A program made the translations under genes and the position numbers. DNA of 22,113 bases. It comes from a virus. Location of the stretch: IMG/VR virus record IMGVR_UViG_3300043446_002079, positions 1 through 22,113 of that record. The stretch is one strand, 5' to 3'. How positions within the stretch are numbered: position 1 is the stretch's first letter; every line of letters starts with the position of its first letter. The notes below the pieces were generated by a model, which did no database searches, was not told the origin of the DNA, and worked only from the letters and a program-made list of their open reading frames with translations. Below, one piece after another: positions 8,377 through 21,017 of the stretch.

Positions 8377-9615
8377 TCACCTAAAGTTAAACGCGCCAAA
8401 CCGGCCGTATGGGTCAAAGCCGCCGAGTCTAGAGAGGCCACTGAGGTCGCCAAGATCGTACGGCATCGTGGTCTCTACTGGCTGCGTCACGGATGGGAAA
8501 TATGGTGTCGCAGGTTGATTGACTGGTTGCGTTATTGATGGCGCCGCAGATGGCGCTGCCGCCCCTAAATTCCTTCCTTCACTACGACCATATTTCAAAT
8601 AATGACGCGCCGCCTCGCTTGGCGTATCAAGCCCTGCCGCGCGAAGATCGGCGTTTGACGGCGCATCAAGATACGCCTGCCAATTAAATCCGCTTGGCAA
8701 ATCTGCGGCATTGATTTGACCCTCACCACGGCCCCAGTCATCGTTTGACGGATCGTAAATGTTTGGAGCCTGTGGCTGTGACGGCGGCTGTTGCGTCGTC
8801 TGCTGTTGCGATTGAGCCTGTCCGCGAAATACTGCGGCGCGCTCTTCAGCGAGCTGTCTTGCGCGGTCTGTGTCAATGCCTGGGTTATTTTCGACCAGCT
8901 TGGTGTACCAATAGTCTGGGTTTGAGCTCTGGTTTTGCTGGCTTGGCACTGGCGCTGGCGCTGGTGTAACCGGGGCCGGCGGACTTACGGGCGGCTGCGC
9001 CGGCATAGGCGGAGACCATGTCATGCGCGGCGGCTGGGGGGCATATGCTTGAACTTCTGGTTGCTGAGTTGGGAACATACGCTCGCGACCGCCGCGTCGG
9101 CCGCCGCCAAACCCGCCACGCCGGCCGCCGCCAAACATGGACGTGGCCTGGAACGGGTTGAAGGCCGGCTGACCATAATATTGGCCAAACATATACTGAC
9201 CAAATAGGTCGTTTACGTTCGGCTGCTGCGGCTGCGGCATACCAAACCCGCCGCCGTAGCCGCCGCCAAAGCGGCCGCCAAACTGGCTCGCAAAGCCGCC
9301 ATATCCACGACCGTAGCCGCCGCCATAGCCGCCAAACTGCTGCGGCAGTTGCGCGCCATAGCCCGGCATGTATCCGCCGGTGTAATCCTGTTGCTGGTAC
9401 GGCGTCGGGCTATAAGACCCAAACATGCTATAGCCGCCGCCCATCGAGGCGGGGCCGCTCACGGCGCCAAAGTTGGCGAGGCCGCTGAGGTCTCCGAGGT
9501 CTCCGAGGTCTTGCATGGTGTCTCCACCATAGCCAGACATGTTGAAGCCGCCCGTCGGGGCCTGCGAATAAATTGGCGTCATGTATTGTGCTTGACCCCG
9601 AAATGCGTTGCTCAT
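8377..9615 (-). CDS. Gly/Tyr- and Pro/Gln-rich low-complexity virion protein
   Basis: This 412-aa protein is mostly disordered in appearance. Residues about 60-180 are Gly/Tyr/Phe-rich (GGYGGGYGRGYGGF, GGRRGGFGGGRRGG) and 190-245 are Pro/Gln-rich. At 310-348 a compact motif reads FNWQAYLDAPSNADLRAAG, then HYLKYGRSEGR, resembling the Y-x(n)-NxDL...HYxxxGxxEGR motif found in phage and bacterial surface proteins. The peptide DLGDLSGL occurs near both ends (39-46 and 387-394). The composition is like self-associating or adhesive proteins. I recognise no function. Its ATG follows the previous stop by one base (TAACATG), placing it in the group of small virion genes after the portal. Confidence 0.7.
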   Translation of the reverse strand: MSNAFRGQAQYMTPIYSQAPTGGFNMSGYGGDTMQDLGDLGDLSGLANFGAVSGPASMGGGYSMFGSYSPTPYQQQDYTGGYMPGYGAQLPQQFGGYGGGYGRGYGGFASQFGGRFGGGYGGGFGMPQPQQPNVNDLFGQYMFGQYYGQPAFNPFQATSMFGGGRRGGFGGGRRGGRERMFPTQQPEVQAYAPQPPRMTWSPPMPAQPPVSPPAPVTPAPAPVPSQQNQSSNPDYWYTKLVENNPGIDTDRARQLAEERAAVFRGQAQSQQQTTQQPPSQPQAPNIYDPSNDDWGRGEGQINAADLPSGFNWQAYLDAPSNADLRAAGLDTPSEAARHYLKYGRSEGRNLGAAAPSAAPSITQPVNQPATPYFPSVTQPVETTMPYDLGDLSGLSRLGGFDPYGRFGAFNFR

Positions 9616-17734: not shown

Positions 17735-18006
17735 GTCGGCCTCCAGTCGTGGATACCGTTGCGCTTCGGCGGGTCGCGGTACTTGTGCTCTTCGGCTTCA
17801 GCCGCGGCAGCCTCGAACGTCTCGAACGACCCCAGGTGCTTAGGGATCACCCTGCCGTCTGGCCCACGCCGCCACAGGACGAACTCCTGCTTCCCGTTCA
17901 TCGTCTGGCCACGGATCGAGAACCGCCGGCAGGCCGAGGTCTTGCCCCAGAAGTCCGAGTCCTCCCAGACCAGCGGCCCGAGTAGGTTGAATTCACTCTG
18001 TGTCAT
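17722..18006 (-). CDS. Unknown 94-aa phage protein
   Basis: The product starts MTQSEFNLLGPLVWEDSDFW and has FSIRGQTMNGKQEFVLWRRG, then KHLGSFETFEAAAAEAEEHK. The strand-strand-strand-helix pattern with a final FETFEAAxxxA helix resembles small AP2-like or integrase-arm-like folds, but the match is weak and I do not assign a function. The ATG at 18006 is preferred over earlier in-frame codons because it overlaps the preceding gene by only 14 nt. Confidence 0.6.
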   Translation of the reverse strand: MTQSEFNLLGPLVWEDSDFWGKTSACRRFSIRGQTMNGKQEFVLWRRGPDGRVIPKHLGSFETFEAAAAEAEEHKYRDPPKRNGIHDWRPTWGK

Positions 18007-18226
18007 CGATCCACCTCGGCATCTTCCCGACCTCGCCGTGCCTGTCGCGGTAATACAGCAGCCTTGCACCAAAGTGCGACTGGAGCGTCTTGAGGTCGGC
18101 CAGCATCTCCGGGCCACCCTCTTCCGCCATGCGTTTAGCCAGTGGCGTATCAGCAACAGGTTGTTGCTTCTTTACAACACCACCACCCCCCACCCTAGCC
18201 TGCTGGAGCAATCTTTTCTTCCTCAC
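17993..18226 (-). CDS. Unknown 77-aa protein, first gene of the late block
   Basis: This small protein has a basic N-terminus (RKKRLLQQARVGGGG) and then a helical region with LAKRMAEEGGPEMLADLKTL and ARLLYYRDRHGEVGKMPRWI. No family is recognised. The start is GTG at 18226, with AGGA seven bases upstream. It is the first gene after the heptamer array, and a -35/-10 pair lies close enough that the message may have almost no leader. Confidence 0.55.
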   Translation of the reverse strand: MRKKRLLQQARVGGGGVVKKQQPVADTPLAKRMAEEGGPEMLADLKTLQSHFGARLLYYRDRHGEVGKMPRWIDDTE

Positions 18227-18232
18227 ATATTT

Positions 18233-18261
18233 ATCCTATGTCTGGTCAAATCCATGGTCAA
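18233..18261 (-). promoter_or_regulatory. Possible promoter for the late block
   Basis: On the minus strand TTGACC (18261-18256), 17 bases and TAGGAT (18238-18233) give a sigma70-like pair. Its -35 box is part of a GGTCAAA-type heptamer, so a protein bound there would block or activate it directly. The predicted start lies at or next to the GTG of the first gene, which is unusual and lowers confidence. Confidence 0.35.
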
Positions 18262-18352
18262 AAGTCAAAACCCTATATAGGGTTTTTTGACCTTTTTGAC
18301 CGCATGGACGGTCAAAACGTGGTCAAAATTTGACCTTTTTGACTTTTTGACC
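18244..18352. promoter_or_regulatory. Array of ten GGTCAAA-type heptamers
   Basis: Heptamers on the plus strand lie at 18244, 18256, 18263 (AGTCAAA), 18310 and 18321. Inverted copies (TTTGACC) start at 18286, 18295, 18329, 18338 (TTTGACT) and 18346. Eight are exact and two have one change. They form two convergent groups, one around a 20-bp palindrome (centre 18276/18277) and one around the single base 18328, so the centres are about 52 bp apart. The region is AT-rich and non-coding, between the primase stop and the late block. It could be a replication origin with iterons or a cooperative operator. Confidence 0.7.
18267..18286. terminator. 20-bp palindrome inside the heptamer array
   Basis: AAAACCCTATATAGGGTTTT is perfectly symmetrical. 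As RNA on either strand it gives a 7-bp stem with a TATATA loop. On the plus strand it is followed by two more T residues, and on the minus strand it ends in TTTT, so it could be a weak two-way terminator that separates primase from late transcription. Equally it could be the melting site of an origin or a central operator. Confidence 0.45.
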
Positions 18353-18354
18353 GC

Positions 18355-20436
18355 CTACTTTAACCCCTCTTCCGAGAGCCTAAACCCACCCACCGTGCTG
18401 GTCAGGAACGGGCTCATGGCCATCATTTCGACCGCCCTGTGGACAGACTGCTTGCTCTGCCCGCACTCCTTCCCGACCTGCCGCAGGTCTACCATGGTCC
18501 AGATCAGGGTCGTCTCGGACGCCTTCTGGCGCGCCCGGAGCGCGTCCAGGATCATCTTCTGGACCTTGCCCTGCGGCGTCGCCTTCTTGGTCGCGACCAC
18601 CGGGTCGGTGGCCCGCATCACGAGCGACTTGACGCCCTCGCCGTACCGATCGACCCGCCCGAGGTCCACCTCGACGGCCTCGTATCCGATCGGAGACATG
18701 GAGGCCGTGTCCTTGAACCGCTCGCGGGTCACGTTGACCGCCATGCCCTGGGCGTCTGGCCGCTCGACGATATACTCGGCGTCTGGGTTAGCCATGAGCG
18801 CCGACGCGCCACGCGGCCGCTTGGAGTCGCCGTGGCCGCTATGTGCGACCAAGAGCACCGTCGCCGTGTACCGCTCGCGCAGCCCGATCGTGAGCTTGGA
18901 GAGATACTCGGCGACCTCCTGGTTGCTGTTCTCGTCGAGCCCCGCGCTGAACTTGCTGAACGTGTCCACGACCACGAGCGCCGGCCGAATCCCGGCCTCG
19001 TCGATCGCGCTCTGGAGCATGGCCATCTCCTCGTCGGCGTTGAGGTTCGCGACCGACTCCAGCGCCATGAGCCGCAGCTCCTCGAAATCGCGCCCCTTGC
19101 CGTGCTCCTGCATCCATGCCTCGGCGCGACGGCCGAGGCCCGCGCCCTCGCCCGAGAGGATCACCACGGGATTATCCGCGGCCGCGATACGCATCGCCCA
19201 GTCGAGCGCAATAAAAGACTTGAAGCTGGCGCGTGGCCCGGCGAGGACCGCCAGCACGTTGGCCTCGAGGACGTTGTGGATCAGCCAGCTCGCCTCGCGC
19301 CGCTCGGTGACGATCTCGCCGATGGGCCGCAGGATAAGGCGACGGCTCGGGACTATGCCACCAGGTGTCACTGTCCCAGATTGTTGTCCGGACGCTGTGT
19401 GTACAATCTGCGGCTCGCGGACGCGCTCCATCCCGAGCGCCTCGGGCAGGTTTTCGTAGCTACAAAAATCCTCGGGCTCCTCGCGCTTCGGTGGCCCGAG
19501 CCGCACCGCCTCTGGGACGTTGACCCAGCCGCCCGCCTTGGCGGCGTTGAAGAGGCTCCCGAGCGTGACGCCGCCGCCGCGGTCGAGGTGGAACGACTGC
19601 CACCGATACTCGATGTCGGCGCGGCCCGCGTAAGAGTCTGGCAGTACGCCCGTGACGCACCCGCTTGACCAGGCGTCCCAGAGCTCGAGCCCGTCGTCGG
19701 CGCCGCCGGAGGCGTGGTGCAGAGCCATCCCTACCATAAGCCACGGGTCGTAGTCAGCCGGGTCGATGAAGACGAGGGCCTCGGTGATCCGCCGCAGCTC
19801 GCGCTGGAAGTCTCCGCTGGTGCCGGGCTTTGGCGGTAACTTGGCCGCGACCTCCGCCGGGAGTTCAAGGTCCATCCGGCGCTCGTCGATAAGCCCCGCC
19901 GGCAGCGGCTGGACCTCCTCGAGCGGCCCGCTCTGGCCGAAGTGCAGGGGCCACCAGATGATGTAGCCGCCCTCGGCGCGGATGTCCAGGCCGTCGCGCT
20001 TGACCTTCCCCAGGACGACGTTGGCGCCGCCCCTGATCTTGACCCCGGCGGGTAGCTTGAAGAGGTAGTGCCGCCCGCCGCTGCCGCCGCCGGTCTGGTG
20101 TACGCGGGTGCTTAGAAGAGCGCCCTGATTTTCAGATAGCCACTCCTGAGCAGCGACCCCAGCCTTGCTGGTATCGAAGTCAATGACGGCGAGGCCGGTG
20201 CGGCTCCCGGTCGGGACGCCGACGAGGGCGTCAGGGTGAGCGGCCCAGAGTCGACGTATCTGGGCCTCGTCTTGGGTGGCGTCCTTGAATCCGTTTTTGG
20301 TGAGCGGGCTCTTGGCCTTGAGCGTGCGCCCCTCTTGGTCTGTTTCATCTTTCCTCCTGCACGGGAAAACGGGATAACGCCTCGCCAGCTCGAGGACCCT
20401 CTCGACTGGCACGATCGCGGTGAGTTCTGGTTTCAT
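18355..20436 (-). CDS. Prim-pol primase with RepA-type helicase domain
   Basis: This 693-aa multidomain replication protein has three parts. Residues about 10-185 are a primase-polymerase: FPC (24-26), AVIDFD with catalytic D86/D88, STRVHQTGGGSGGRHYLF (109-126) and DIRAEGGYII (151-160). Residues about 210-305 resemble primase C-terminal domain 2 (DPWLMVGMALHHASGG, LELWDAWSSG). Residues about 370-600 are a RepA/AAA_25-type ATPase with altered Walker A AGPRASFKSF (399-408), Walker B VVVDTFSK (488-495) and LLVAHSGHGDSKRPRGAS (528-545). The C-terminal 70 residues look like a winged helix (ECGQSKQSVHRAVEMM). It would prime and unwind phage DNA. Its ATG overlaps the stop of the HTH gene (ATGA). The heptamer array follows its stop by 2 nt, as expected of an origin site. 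Confidence 0.88.
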   Translation of the reverse strand: MKPELTAIVPVERVLELARRYPVFPCRRKDETDQEGRTLKAKSPLTKNGFKDATQDEAQIRRLWAAHPDALVGVPTGSRTGLAVIDFDTSKAGVAAQEWLSENQGALLSTRVHQTGGGSGGRHYLFKLPAGVKIRGGANVVLGKVKRDGLDIRAEGGYIIWWPLHFGQSGPLEEVQPLPAGLIDERRMDLELPAEVAAKLPPKPGTSGDFQRELRRITEALVFIDPADYDPWLMVGMALHHASGGADDGLELWDAWSSGCVTGVLPDSYAGRADIEYRWQSFHLDRGGGVTLGSLFNAAKAGGWVNVPEAVRLGPPKREEPEDFCSYENLPEALGMERVREPQIVHTASGQQSGTVTPGGIVPSRRLILRPIGEIVTERREASWLIHNVLEANVLAVLAGPRASFKSFIALDWAMRIAAADNPVVILSGEGAGLGRRAEAWMQEHGKGRDFEELRLMALESVANLNADEEMAMLQSAIDEAGIRPALVVVDTFSKFSAGLDENSNQEVAEYLSKLTIGLRERYTATVLLVAHSGHGDSKRPRGASALMANPDAEYIVERPDAQGMAVNVTRERFKDTASMSPIGYEAVEVDLGRVDRYGEGVKSLVMRATDPVVATKKATPQGKVQKMILDALRARQKASETTLIWTMVDLRQVGKECGQSKQSVHRAVEMMAMSPFLTSTVGGFRLSEEGLK

Positions 20437-20645
20437 GGATAAATATCCGGTCGTAGAGCTTTCCTTGATACCCCAGTCGCCGCCTCAACCGCAAGGACAC
20501 GGAGAGGGGGAATCCTGCCGCTGGCGCACCACTTCTGGACCGCCTGCGGCCTTATACCTAGCTTTCTTGCAAGGGAAGACTGACCGCCTGCCCTGTCCAC
20601 GGCGTGGATAACTGCCGCCTGCTGCGGCGTGATCTTGTTGTTCAT
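20433..20645 (-). CDS. Cro/YdaS-like HTH regulator
   Basis: The 70-aa protein starts MNNKITPQQAAVIHAVDRAG, then GGQSSLARKLGIRPQAVQKW and PLRVLAVEAATGVSRKALRP. This is the common Cro/YdaS-type helix-turn-helix; helices 2 and 3 fall at about 22-40. Such proteins repress early phage promoters. It lies at the head of the minus-strand primase operon, facing the plus-strand early operon across about 150 bp, the typical position of a transcription switch. The start ATG at 20645 has a poor ribosome binding site. The product probably acts at the dyad in the divergent region. Confidence 0.85.
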   Translation of the reverse strand: MNNKITPQQAAVIHAVDRAGGQSSLARKLGIRPQAVQKWCASGRIPPLRVLAVEAATGVSRKALRPDIYP

Positions 20646-20711
20646 GTCGCGATCTTACAACTATCGGTGGCACCCAGAAAAGAGGGCCATAAAAATATTT
20701 ACACCGAGGGG

Positions 20712-20740
20712 TTGTAGACAGACAGCGATATCTGTATAAC
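20712..20740 (+). promoter_or_regulatory. Early promoter with operator-like dyad
   Basis: TTGTAG (20712-20717), a 17-base spacer and TATAAC (20735-20740) form a good sigma70-like promoter for the plus-strand operon, with a start near 20747. The spacer carries ACAG-N6-CTGT (20721-20734), so a Cro-like dimer bound there would block RNA polymerase. The AT-rich segment 20684-20699 on the other side may serve the opposite promoter of the HTH gene; no clear boxes are seen there. Confidence 0.6.
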
Positions 20741-20757
20741 GTCTTCCACGGGCGGCG

Positions 20758-20783
20758 CGGTGCCGCACCGGAAGCGATCAAAG
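20758..20783 (+). promoter_or_regulatory. Leader module 1: hairpin plus AAGCGATCAAAG
   Basis: CGGTG, loop CCG, CACCG (20758-20770) forms a hairpin, followed by AAGCGATCAAAG at 20772-20783 and then the purine-rich AGGTAAAGGAAA before ATG 20796. The same 12-mer, also after a GC-rich hairpin and 11 nt before the start codon, precedes the next gene at 21031-21042. Confidence 0.5.
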
Positions 20784-20795
20784 AGGTAAAGGAAA

Positions 20796-21017
20796 ATGAG
20801 CGACAAAGAAATCAAGATGTTCGGTTGCACGAAGGTTGAAATTGATCAGGCCGATGCCGAAGCGCTTGGACATCCAATGATGAGAATCATGGGTTTGATG
20901 TCAGACGCGCAGGCGCAGATGGCGATGGGCATGAATGAATCTGCCCGCCAGACTTTGAATGTTGCGAAATACTTAATCAGCAAACACGGTTTCAACGATA
21001 TCGGGGTGGCGGCGTAA
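20796..21017 (+). CDS. Unknown 73-aa early protein
   Basis: This is the first gene of the plus-strand early operon, with a strong ribosome binding site (AAAGGAA). The protein starts MSDKEIKMFGCTKVEIDQAD and has a helical, Met-rich middle (HPMMRIMGLMSDAQAQMAMG) and NESARQTLNVAKYLISKHGF. It has no membrane segment or known motif. GC content is lower than in neighbours. Being the first early gene it could be a host-takeover or anti-defence factor, but nothing in the sequence shows this. Confidence 0.65.
   Translation: MSDKEIKMFGCTKVEIDQADAEALGHPMMRIMGLMSDAQAQMAMGMNESARQTLNVAKYLISKHGFNDIGVAA

Follow-up and report, generated by a model that had tools for sequence, protein, structure and literature searches.

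Gene setting of the array

The window, by which we mean the whole stretch of 22,113 bases analysed, carries a dense array of heptamer repeats. ORF and domain annotation places all genes around this array on the minus strand. Since the operon genes run in this direction, the array follows the primase gene at its 3′ end and immediately precedes, on the 5′ side, a small ORF. The genes and domains discussed below are, in window coordinates:

20433..20645, minus strand: YdaS/Cro-like HTH protein, first gene of the operon (Pfam YdaS_toxin, P22_Cro)
18355..20436, minus strand: replication protein, 693 aa (Pfam; PHROGs DNA polymerase/primase)
18358..18618, minus strand: C-terminal domain of the replication protein, residues 607-693, predicted winged helix and proposed iteron reader (AlphaFold2, tree fit)
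18418..18453, minus strand: predicted recognition helix, residues 662-673, KQSVHRAVEMMA; residues 662, 663 and 667 separate the word classes
18244..18352, minus strand: the array as a whole, with ten heptamer sites forming two convergent groups; proposed replication origin
17993..18226, minus strand: small ORF of 77 aa without a family assignment, immediately beyond the array

The replication protein combines a Prim-Pol domain (residues 18-166, PF09250), a PriCT_2 domain (218-299), an AAA_25 RecA-type helicase (372-537) and the C-terminal winged helix. Beyond the small ORF lie two more small ORFs, a RusA-like resolvase and an NrdR-like zinc ribbon, and further on the small and large terminase subunits, portal and capsid. 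Relatives of the portal belong to phages of about 33-44 kb and share 38-50% identity. The replication region has no DNA-level relatives in the sequenced-phage collection, and its closest protein relatives among sequenced phages are only 24-32% identical.

Anatomy of the array

Read in the sense of the primase gene, the array has the layout >>> << >> hairpin << <, with these components:

18310..18352: primase-proximal group, sites at 18346 (minus), 18338 (minus, near-copy), 18329 (minus), 18321 (plus) and 18310 (plus); positions conserved among relatives
18244..18308: distal group around the hairpin, sites at 18295 (minus), 18286 (minus), 18263 (plus, near-copy), 18256 (plus) and 18244 (plus)
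18267..18286: perfect 20-bp palindrome AAAACCCTATATAGGGTTTT, tip of a stem-loop
18251-18308: extended stem-loop in the distal group (fold and covariation)

Exact copies of GGTCAAA start at 18244, 18256, 18310 and 18321 on the plus strand and occupy 18286-18292, 18295-18301, 18329-18335 and 18346-18352 on the minus strand. The near-copies at 18263 (plus) and 18338 (minus) read AGTCAAA and are one base off. The first-pass annotation, made from the letters of the window, had described ten sites of this type in 109 bp, eight of them exact, arranged as two convergent groups about 52 bp apart; this description holds, with one group centred on the palindrome, the other on the single base 18328, and 51.5 bp between the two axes.

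Ten exact copies of GGTCAAA occur in the window and eight of them fall within the array. The expectation for the whole window is 1.99 copies, the maximum among 100 shuffles was 6 and none of the 100 reached the observed 10. Two stray copies, at 8412 (plus) and 8715 (minus), both lie in coding sequence and match the chance expectation in number; only one of them, placed near 8411, had been reported before. Cumulative GC skew, proposed earlier as a further check, gave no clear origin signal in the 22-kb fragment; it tracks gene direction and is uninformative as an origin marker here.

Relatives share the plan and differ in the word

A replication-protein search of IMG/VR yielded 66 loci, and three more protein scans were added to the set. 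Nearly all of the approximately 70 relatives carry an array directly 3′ of the prim-pol/PriCT2/AAA_25 gene, where the C-terminus is covered. The repeated word is GGTCAAA, TGTCCGAA, GGTACGAA, TGTTGGAA, TGTCCGGA or TGTTCGGT, and a remote clade (33% identity) has the words GGTCAAAA and TGTTCGGT. Several classes can occur in one water sample, for example TGTCCGAA, GGTACGAA and CCCCAGTT in 3300007735.

Site positions relative to the hairpin centre are common to all classes within about 2 bp. Right-pointing sites are found at about -77, -67 and -58, then at -24 and -15, and left-pointing sites at about -50 and -40, then at +6, +14 and +26; individual sites are degenerate or absent in some classes. 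Because the coordinates are the same in all classes, the scaffold is kept while the word is replaced. The earlier worry that relatives could keep the genes and lose the array is not borne out, as the array persists and its words change along with one protein domain.

Each word is concentrated within 200 bp downstream of the gene and is nearly absent from the remaining locus. In whole contigs of 33-37 kb, which are not necessarily complete, it clusters only behind the gene, with few strays. This bears on the idea that the array is a second site serving copy control (like P4 crr), partition or helicase loading for late recombination-driven replication, and that the true start lies at another place. 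There is precedent in satellite phage P4, whose alpha protein binds at two separate places, ori and crr; in addition, pairing between iteron arrays is a frequent means of limiting copy number. P4 thus has two separated repeat sites, whereas the word forms a single cluster in each of these 33-37 kb records (not necessarily complete), so that no second array is present to serve as the origin. We regard a second-site function as very unlikely.

Some arrays overlap reading frames. In nine class 3 loci, which carry GGTACGAA (L034-L038, L043, L048, L187, L192), the first 150 bp behind the primase stop are open in frame with the small ORF, and the iterons would translate as a VRKVRKVRNVPVRTVRT-like N-terminal extension of it. 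In L008 (around 2079-2154) the primase stop is displaced and the primase ORF continues into the array.

The word changes with the C-terminal winged helix

The C-terminal 75 residues of the replication protein vary with the word. Mapped on the tree of the C-terminal domain, word class changes 6 times, the minimum for seven classes. It changes 14 times on the helicase tree (shuffled 31), 16 times on the small-ORF tree (shuffled 27), 24 times on the tree of the upstream HTH protein (shuffled mean 27), 25 times on the prim-pol tree (shuffled mean 29) and 18-20 times on the trees of the next four proteins (shuffled 21-25). We also considered the YdaS/Cro-like HTH, zinc-ribbon, RusA-like and small-ORF proteins as word readers and set them aside because their trees disagree with the word; the separate HTH protein and the zinc-ribbon protein had been candidates in the first-pass annotation.

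An AlphaFold2 model of residues 607-693 (mean pLDDT 82) consists of three helices followed by two strands, the topology of a winged helix. Searches of Pfam, PDB sequences and Foldseek returned no significant match for this domain, only weak ones. Residues 662, 663 and 667 sort the words without exception in 70 loci. Residues at positions 662/663/664/666/667 and the accompanying words are:

KQSH(K/R): GGTCAAA
RQSHD: TGTCCGAA
KTTH(A/T): GGTACGAA
RHSHD: TGTTGGAA
RSSHE: TGTCCGGA
KQ(S/A)QN, remote clade: GGTCAAA
RTTHD, remote clade: TGTTCGGT; its member L072 carries R-T-T

Overall divergence of the domain and change of the word are separable. Within class 2, winged-helix identity drops as low as 71%, yet the word is unchanged and R-Q-D is constant. 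Between classes 2 and 5, the winged helix is about 80% identical and both the word and the key residues differ. The differences between L064 and L072 are concentrated in the HTH. Six contigs retrieved via the small ORF, in a search that did not use the word, all fit the word/helix table (6/6). The C-terminal winged helix of the replication protein is therefore, on this covariation, the best-supported candidate for the reader of the iterons. Residue 662 further follows the first base of the word, lysine with G and arginine with T, in 7/7 lineages; with so few lineages we treat the pattern as a lead and not as a code. Mutual information was insufficient as a pointer to contact residues by itself, since all parts of the cassette vary in concert.

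Winged helix and array are exchanged together

In many pairs of loci, near-identical flanks enclose a single divergent segment, which runs from about -450 to +150 relative to the stop codon and comprises the winged helix and the array. In L013/L024 (classes 1/2), identity is mostly 90-100% up to about -450, 50-76% in the winged helix and array, and 90-98% beyond the array. L133/L143 and L151/L155 (both classes 2/5) also differ in the cassette alone, and the latter two are 100% identical across 2 kb upstream. L187/L189 (classes 3/2) show a cassette difference of which chiefly the left side is visible, and L037/L132 (classes 3/2) differ over a longer stretch. In all 31 pairs that have different words despite prim-pol identity of at least 95% and helicase identity of at least 85%, the winged helix is different (48-81% identity).

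Exchange also affects other parts of the gene. L151-L156 have an unrelated N-terminal part, yet their C-terminus and array are as in their C-terminal kin. L057/L058 share the prim-pol and have another helicase and C-terminus, together with another array whose word is CCCCAGTT. The joining of a prim-pol to different helicases and C-termini indicates that these replication genes are built from exchangeable domains. As a further observation, L057, L058, L150 and L157-L175 have prim-pols about 80% identical, a different helicase/C-terminus and a differently laid-out CCCCAGTT array.

In PLE satellites, the RepA binding domain and the origin covary and swap together on a shared background, and by sequence comparison the winged helix and the array behave in the same way. 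Linkage alone might yield part of the joint pattern, as the winged helix and the array adjoin. Three observations argue for a functional link: the small ORF beyond the array tracks the word poorly, the residue table is consistent across remote clades, and L064 and L072 differ as described above. The best reading is that the array and the coding end for the winged helix together make up a single specificity cassette, which would recombine between phages as a unit.

The small ORF forms the right-hand flank of the cassette and is common to different word classes. It contains a second inverted repeat, GCAACA-ACC-TGTTGC (window 18148-18170). Hairpins of the TGTTGCG/CGCAACA type are found at the small-ORF position in many relatives of every word class, so this repeat is part of the shared flank, outside the exchanged cassette.

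A stem-loop conserved in shape

A longer fold-back, overlooked by the first-pass annotation, has the palindrome at its tip; in it, TCCAT at 18251-18255 pairs with ATGGA at 18304-18308. Folded as single-stranded DNA, the array is much more stable than its shuffles (z-score -7). Convergent iterons pair trivially; the stem, in addition, extends inside and outside them via non-iteron bases, which covary. In class 1, all 216 of 216 cells of the 24 pairs are paired and seven pairs have changed on both sides; none of 500 shuffles equals this pairing, and slid structures fail. The class 2 stem is similar, with 97.7% of cells paired. The palindrome sequence varies among relatives while its complementarity is retained. 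Pairing kept despite sequence change points to a hairpin or cruciform, as in the pRN1 origin.

Could the hairpin instead work in the transcript, as a terminator or RNA element, with the heptamers as by-products of the stems? In class 1, AAAACCCTATATAGGGTTTT resembles a two-way terminator, one terminator-like match covers 18321-18335, and the stem covaries. The class 2 hairpin GAGTCCTTTAGGACTC, however, is not followed by a T run, the class 1 stem has no G-U intermediates (small numbers), and Rfam returned no match. An RNA element also leaves unexplained why direct repeats off the hairpin change in step with a DNA-binding helix. We consider this reading extremely improbable.

The hairpin core is most commonly CTTTAG (8 of 69 distinct hairpins). 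Our scan frequently selected other hairpins, and we make no firm claim of a universal loop.

Proposed function as a replication origin

The first-pass annotation had offered two functions for the array, a replication origin recognised by the adjacent prim-pol/helicase and an operator for early-to-late switching. As an operator, the array would be bound by the replication protein or another protein mainly to regulate the downstream small ORF, RusA-like nuclease and terminase, either as an early-to-late switch or for self-limitation. The array does sit among genes that share one strand, a single promoter-like match (TTGACC-17-TAGGAT, minus strand) overlaps it, and many plasmid initiators also act as regulators. 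The promoter-like match rests on TTGACC, however, and relatives with other words retain an array that has no TTGACC iterons, so that the suggested -35 role of this hexamer loses ground. Ten sites on a rigid scaffold with a covarying stem-loop exceed the needs of an operator, in class 3 the reading frame of the small ORF stays open through the array, and the covarying domain is part of a helicase-primase. The absence of any word copy at the operon start (20645-20796) speaks against simple autoregulation there and weakens the early-to-late switch as well. An operator as the main function is unlikely.

We consider it highly probable that the array is a phage replication origin whose iterons are bound by the replication protein's own winged helix, and that this tip of the protein and the origin are exchanged as a unit. 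The origin suggested by the first-pass annotation thereby gains support from comparison of the relatives, in which the word changes in step with the winged helix and the plan is conserved.

A possible course of initiation is as follows. The replication protein would bind the ten heptamers through its C-terminal winged helix and assemble its subunits into two oriented groups, spaced by about five turns of the helix, with the helicases facing each other. The helicase would then open the DNA, and the stem-loop in the distal group may aid opening or loading or become exposed itself. On the exposed strand, the prim-pol could make the first primer there. Binding, origin activity, the order of steps, loading, priming and the role of the hairpin are what we infer; what we observe are the anatomy, the conserved site plan, the strict covariation of word and winged helix, their joint exchange and the covariation of the hairpin.

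Comparison with known replicons

Several known systems resemble the present one in part. The SCCmec protein Cch2 recognises AAGTG iterons directly downstream of its own gene with its C-terminal domain (PMC7581432), and SaPI Rep, as far as it is described there, likewise binds iterons directly behind its own gene with the C-terminal domain (Ubeda 2007, via PMC7581432). The phage shares with these self-loading initiator helicases a short-repeat array immediately downstream of the initiator gene. A C-terminal domain as the repeat reader would be a further likeness, suggested indirectly here by the strict covariation and the winged-helix model. SaPI Rep and Cch2 have DUF927 and D5/Primase_Cterm helicases and belong to bacterial islands, whereas the present protein has an AAA_25 helicase and belongs to a free phage. 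The helicase type therefore excludes membership of this group by helicase descent. The fused prim-pol, the fixed ten-site plan, the stem-loop and the many word classes are further differences.

In pRN1, the ORF904 protein (prim-pol, SF3 helicase, winged helix) is followed by a stem-loop origin of poorly conserved sequence, and similar stem-loops have been noted in phages (PMC4234260). As in pRN1 and phage BIP-1, prim-pol, helicase and C-terminal winged helix are united in one protein, a small regulator gene precedes it, the origin (here proposed) is directly behind, and the stem-loop is conserved in shape and not in sequence (PMC4234260). Those replicons differ in having an SF3 helicase, no reported iterons and one stem-loop of about 100 nt (PMC4234260); the helicase here is of the AAA_25 type. 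The alpha protein of P4 is a primase-helicase that binds origin repeats with a C-terminal winged helix (PMC4234260), a likeness in both domain and repeats. Its primase is of the Toprim (DnaG) type, in contrast to the Prim-Pol (PF09250) found here.

Exchange of a binding domain with its origin is best known from PLE satellites, where the RepA binding domain and the origin have swapped on two or more occasions and where one of the types evades the ICP1 nuclease Odn (PMC8263062). In PLE the modularity has been tested experimentally and an origin-targeting enemy exists; the binding domain, in contrast to ours, is an N-terminal RepA_N, the origin lies in a separate intergenic region with three iterons of about 30 bp, two types are found, and the carriers are satellites (PMC8263062). 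RSF1010 oriV shares iterons and hairpins at the origin, but divides the functions between RepC (iterons), RepA (helicase) and RepB′ (primase), and its ssi hairpins are primase sites apart from the iterons (PMC4234260). The present system works like these precedents and belongs to none of them by descent, as the helicase or primase type differs. In the open-access papers that we searched, we found no description of free phages in which six or more specificities, with their residue table, are exchanged on a fixed scaffold.

For prim-pol/helicase/winged-helix replicons, pRN1 among them, earlier work called the recognised motifs "not yet identified" and found the poor sequence conservation of the origin surprising (PMC4234260). 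A fixed scaffold on which words change with a few helix residues offers a simple, testable cause of this poor conservation. The six matched word/helix pairs constitute a natural specificity table for a winged-helix family and offer orthogonal phage replicons.

The question why origins diversify becomes directly testable as well. We tentatively suggest, as one possibility, that free phages keep at least six mutually exclusive origin specificities on a conserved scaffold and trade them as cassettes, with word-specific attackers or hijackers of origins maintaining the diversity. Candidate pressures would be satellites, Odn-like nucleases, decoy origins of plasmids or prophages, and interference between co-infecting phages. 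If this is true, the origin type acts like an incompatibility or immunity type.

Similar arrays in distant phages and prophages

Searches with these replication proteins led to 53 distant loci. In 49% of them a single heptamer is present at least five times within 260 bp downstream of the gene, compared with 1.4% of control windows. Several of the loci look like prophages in contigs from bacterial genomes (Actinobacteria, Proteobacteria). A related prim-pol is not necessarily accompanied by an array in cultured phages (GB2A, Vibrio and Pseudoalteromonas phages), a point against the origin reading; arrays are absent or unclear in Caulobacter phage GB2A, H40/1, Vibrio 1.005.O, phiM5, Venkman and C72C1. 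Microcystis phage MJing1 (OQ540923, our L260) has six copies of CCCTGACC in convergent groups at 40402-40615, behind a primase-helicase gene of another type; this array carries no annotation in record OQ540923. A similar layout behind the helicase genes of very different phages and prophages may provide a rule that helps to find origins in uncharacterised phages.

In eleven bacterial contigs (L221, L224-L230, L233, L240, L249), repeats and a hairpin are located directly behind RecA-type helicase genes of prophage-like loci. These hairpins often have a CTTTAG or CTATAG core, possibly a general mark of such origins.

Another replication-protein family appears to contain a natural word/helix pair of its own. 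L107/L110 and L116 encode near-identical replication proteins and have the words TGTCCCA and TGCCCCA, respectively; their HTHs differ by small changes, SKSTAGRVM versus SKGTVSRVV.
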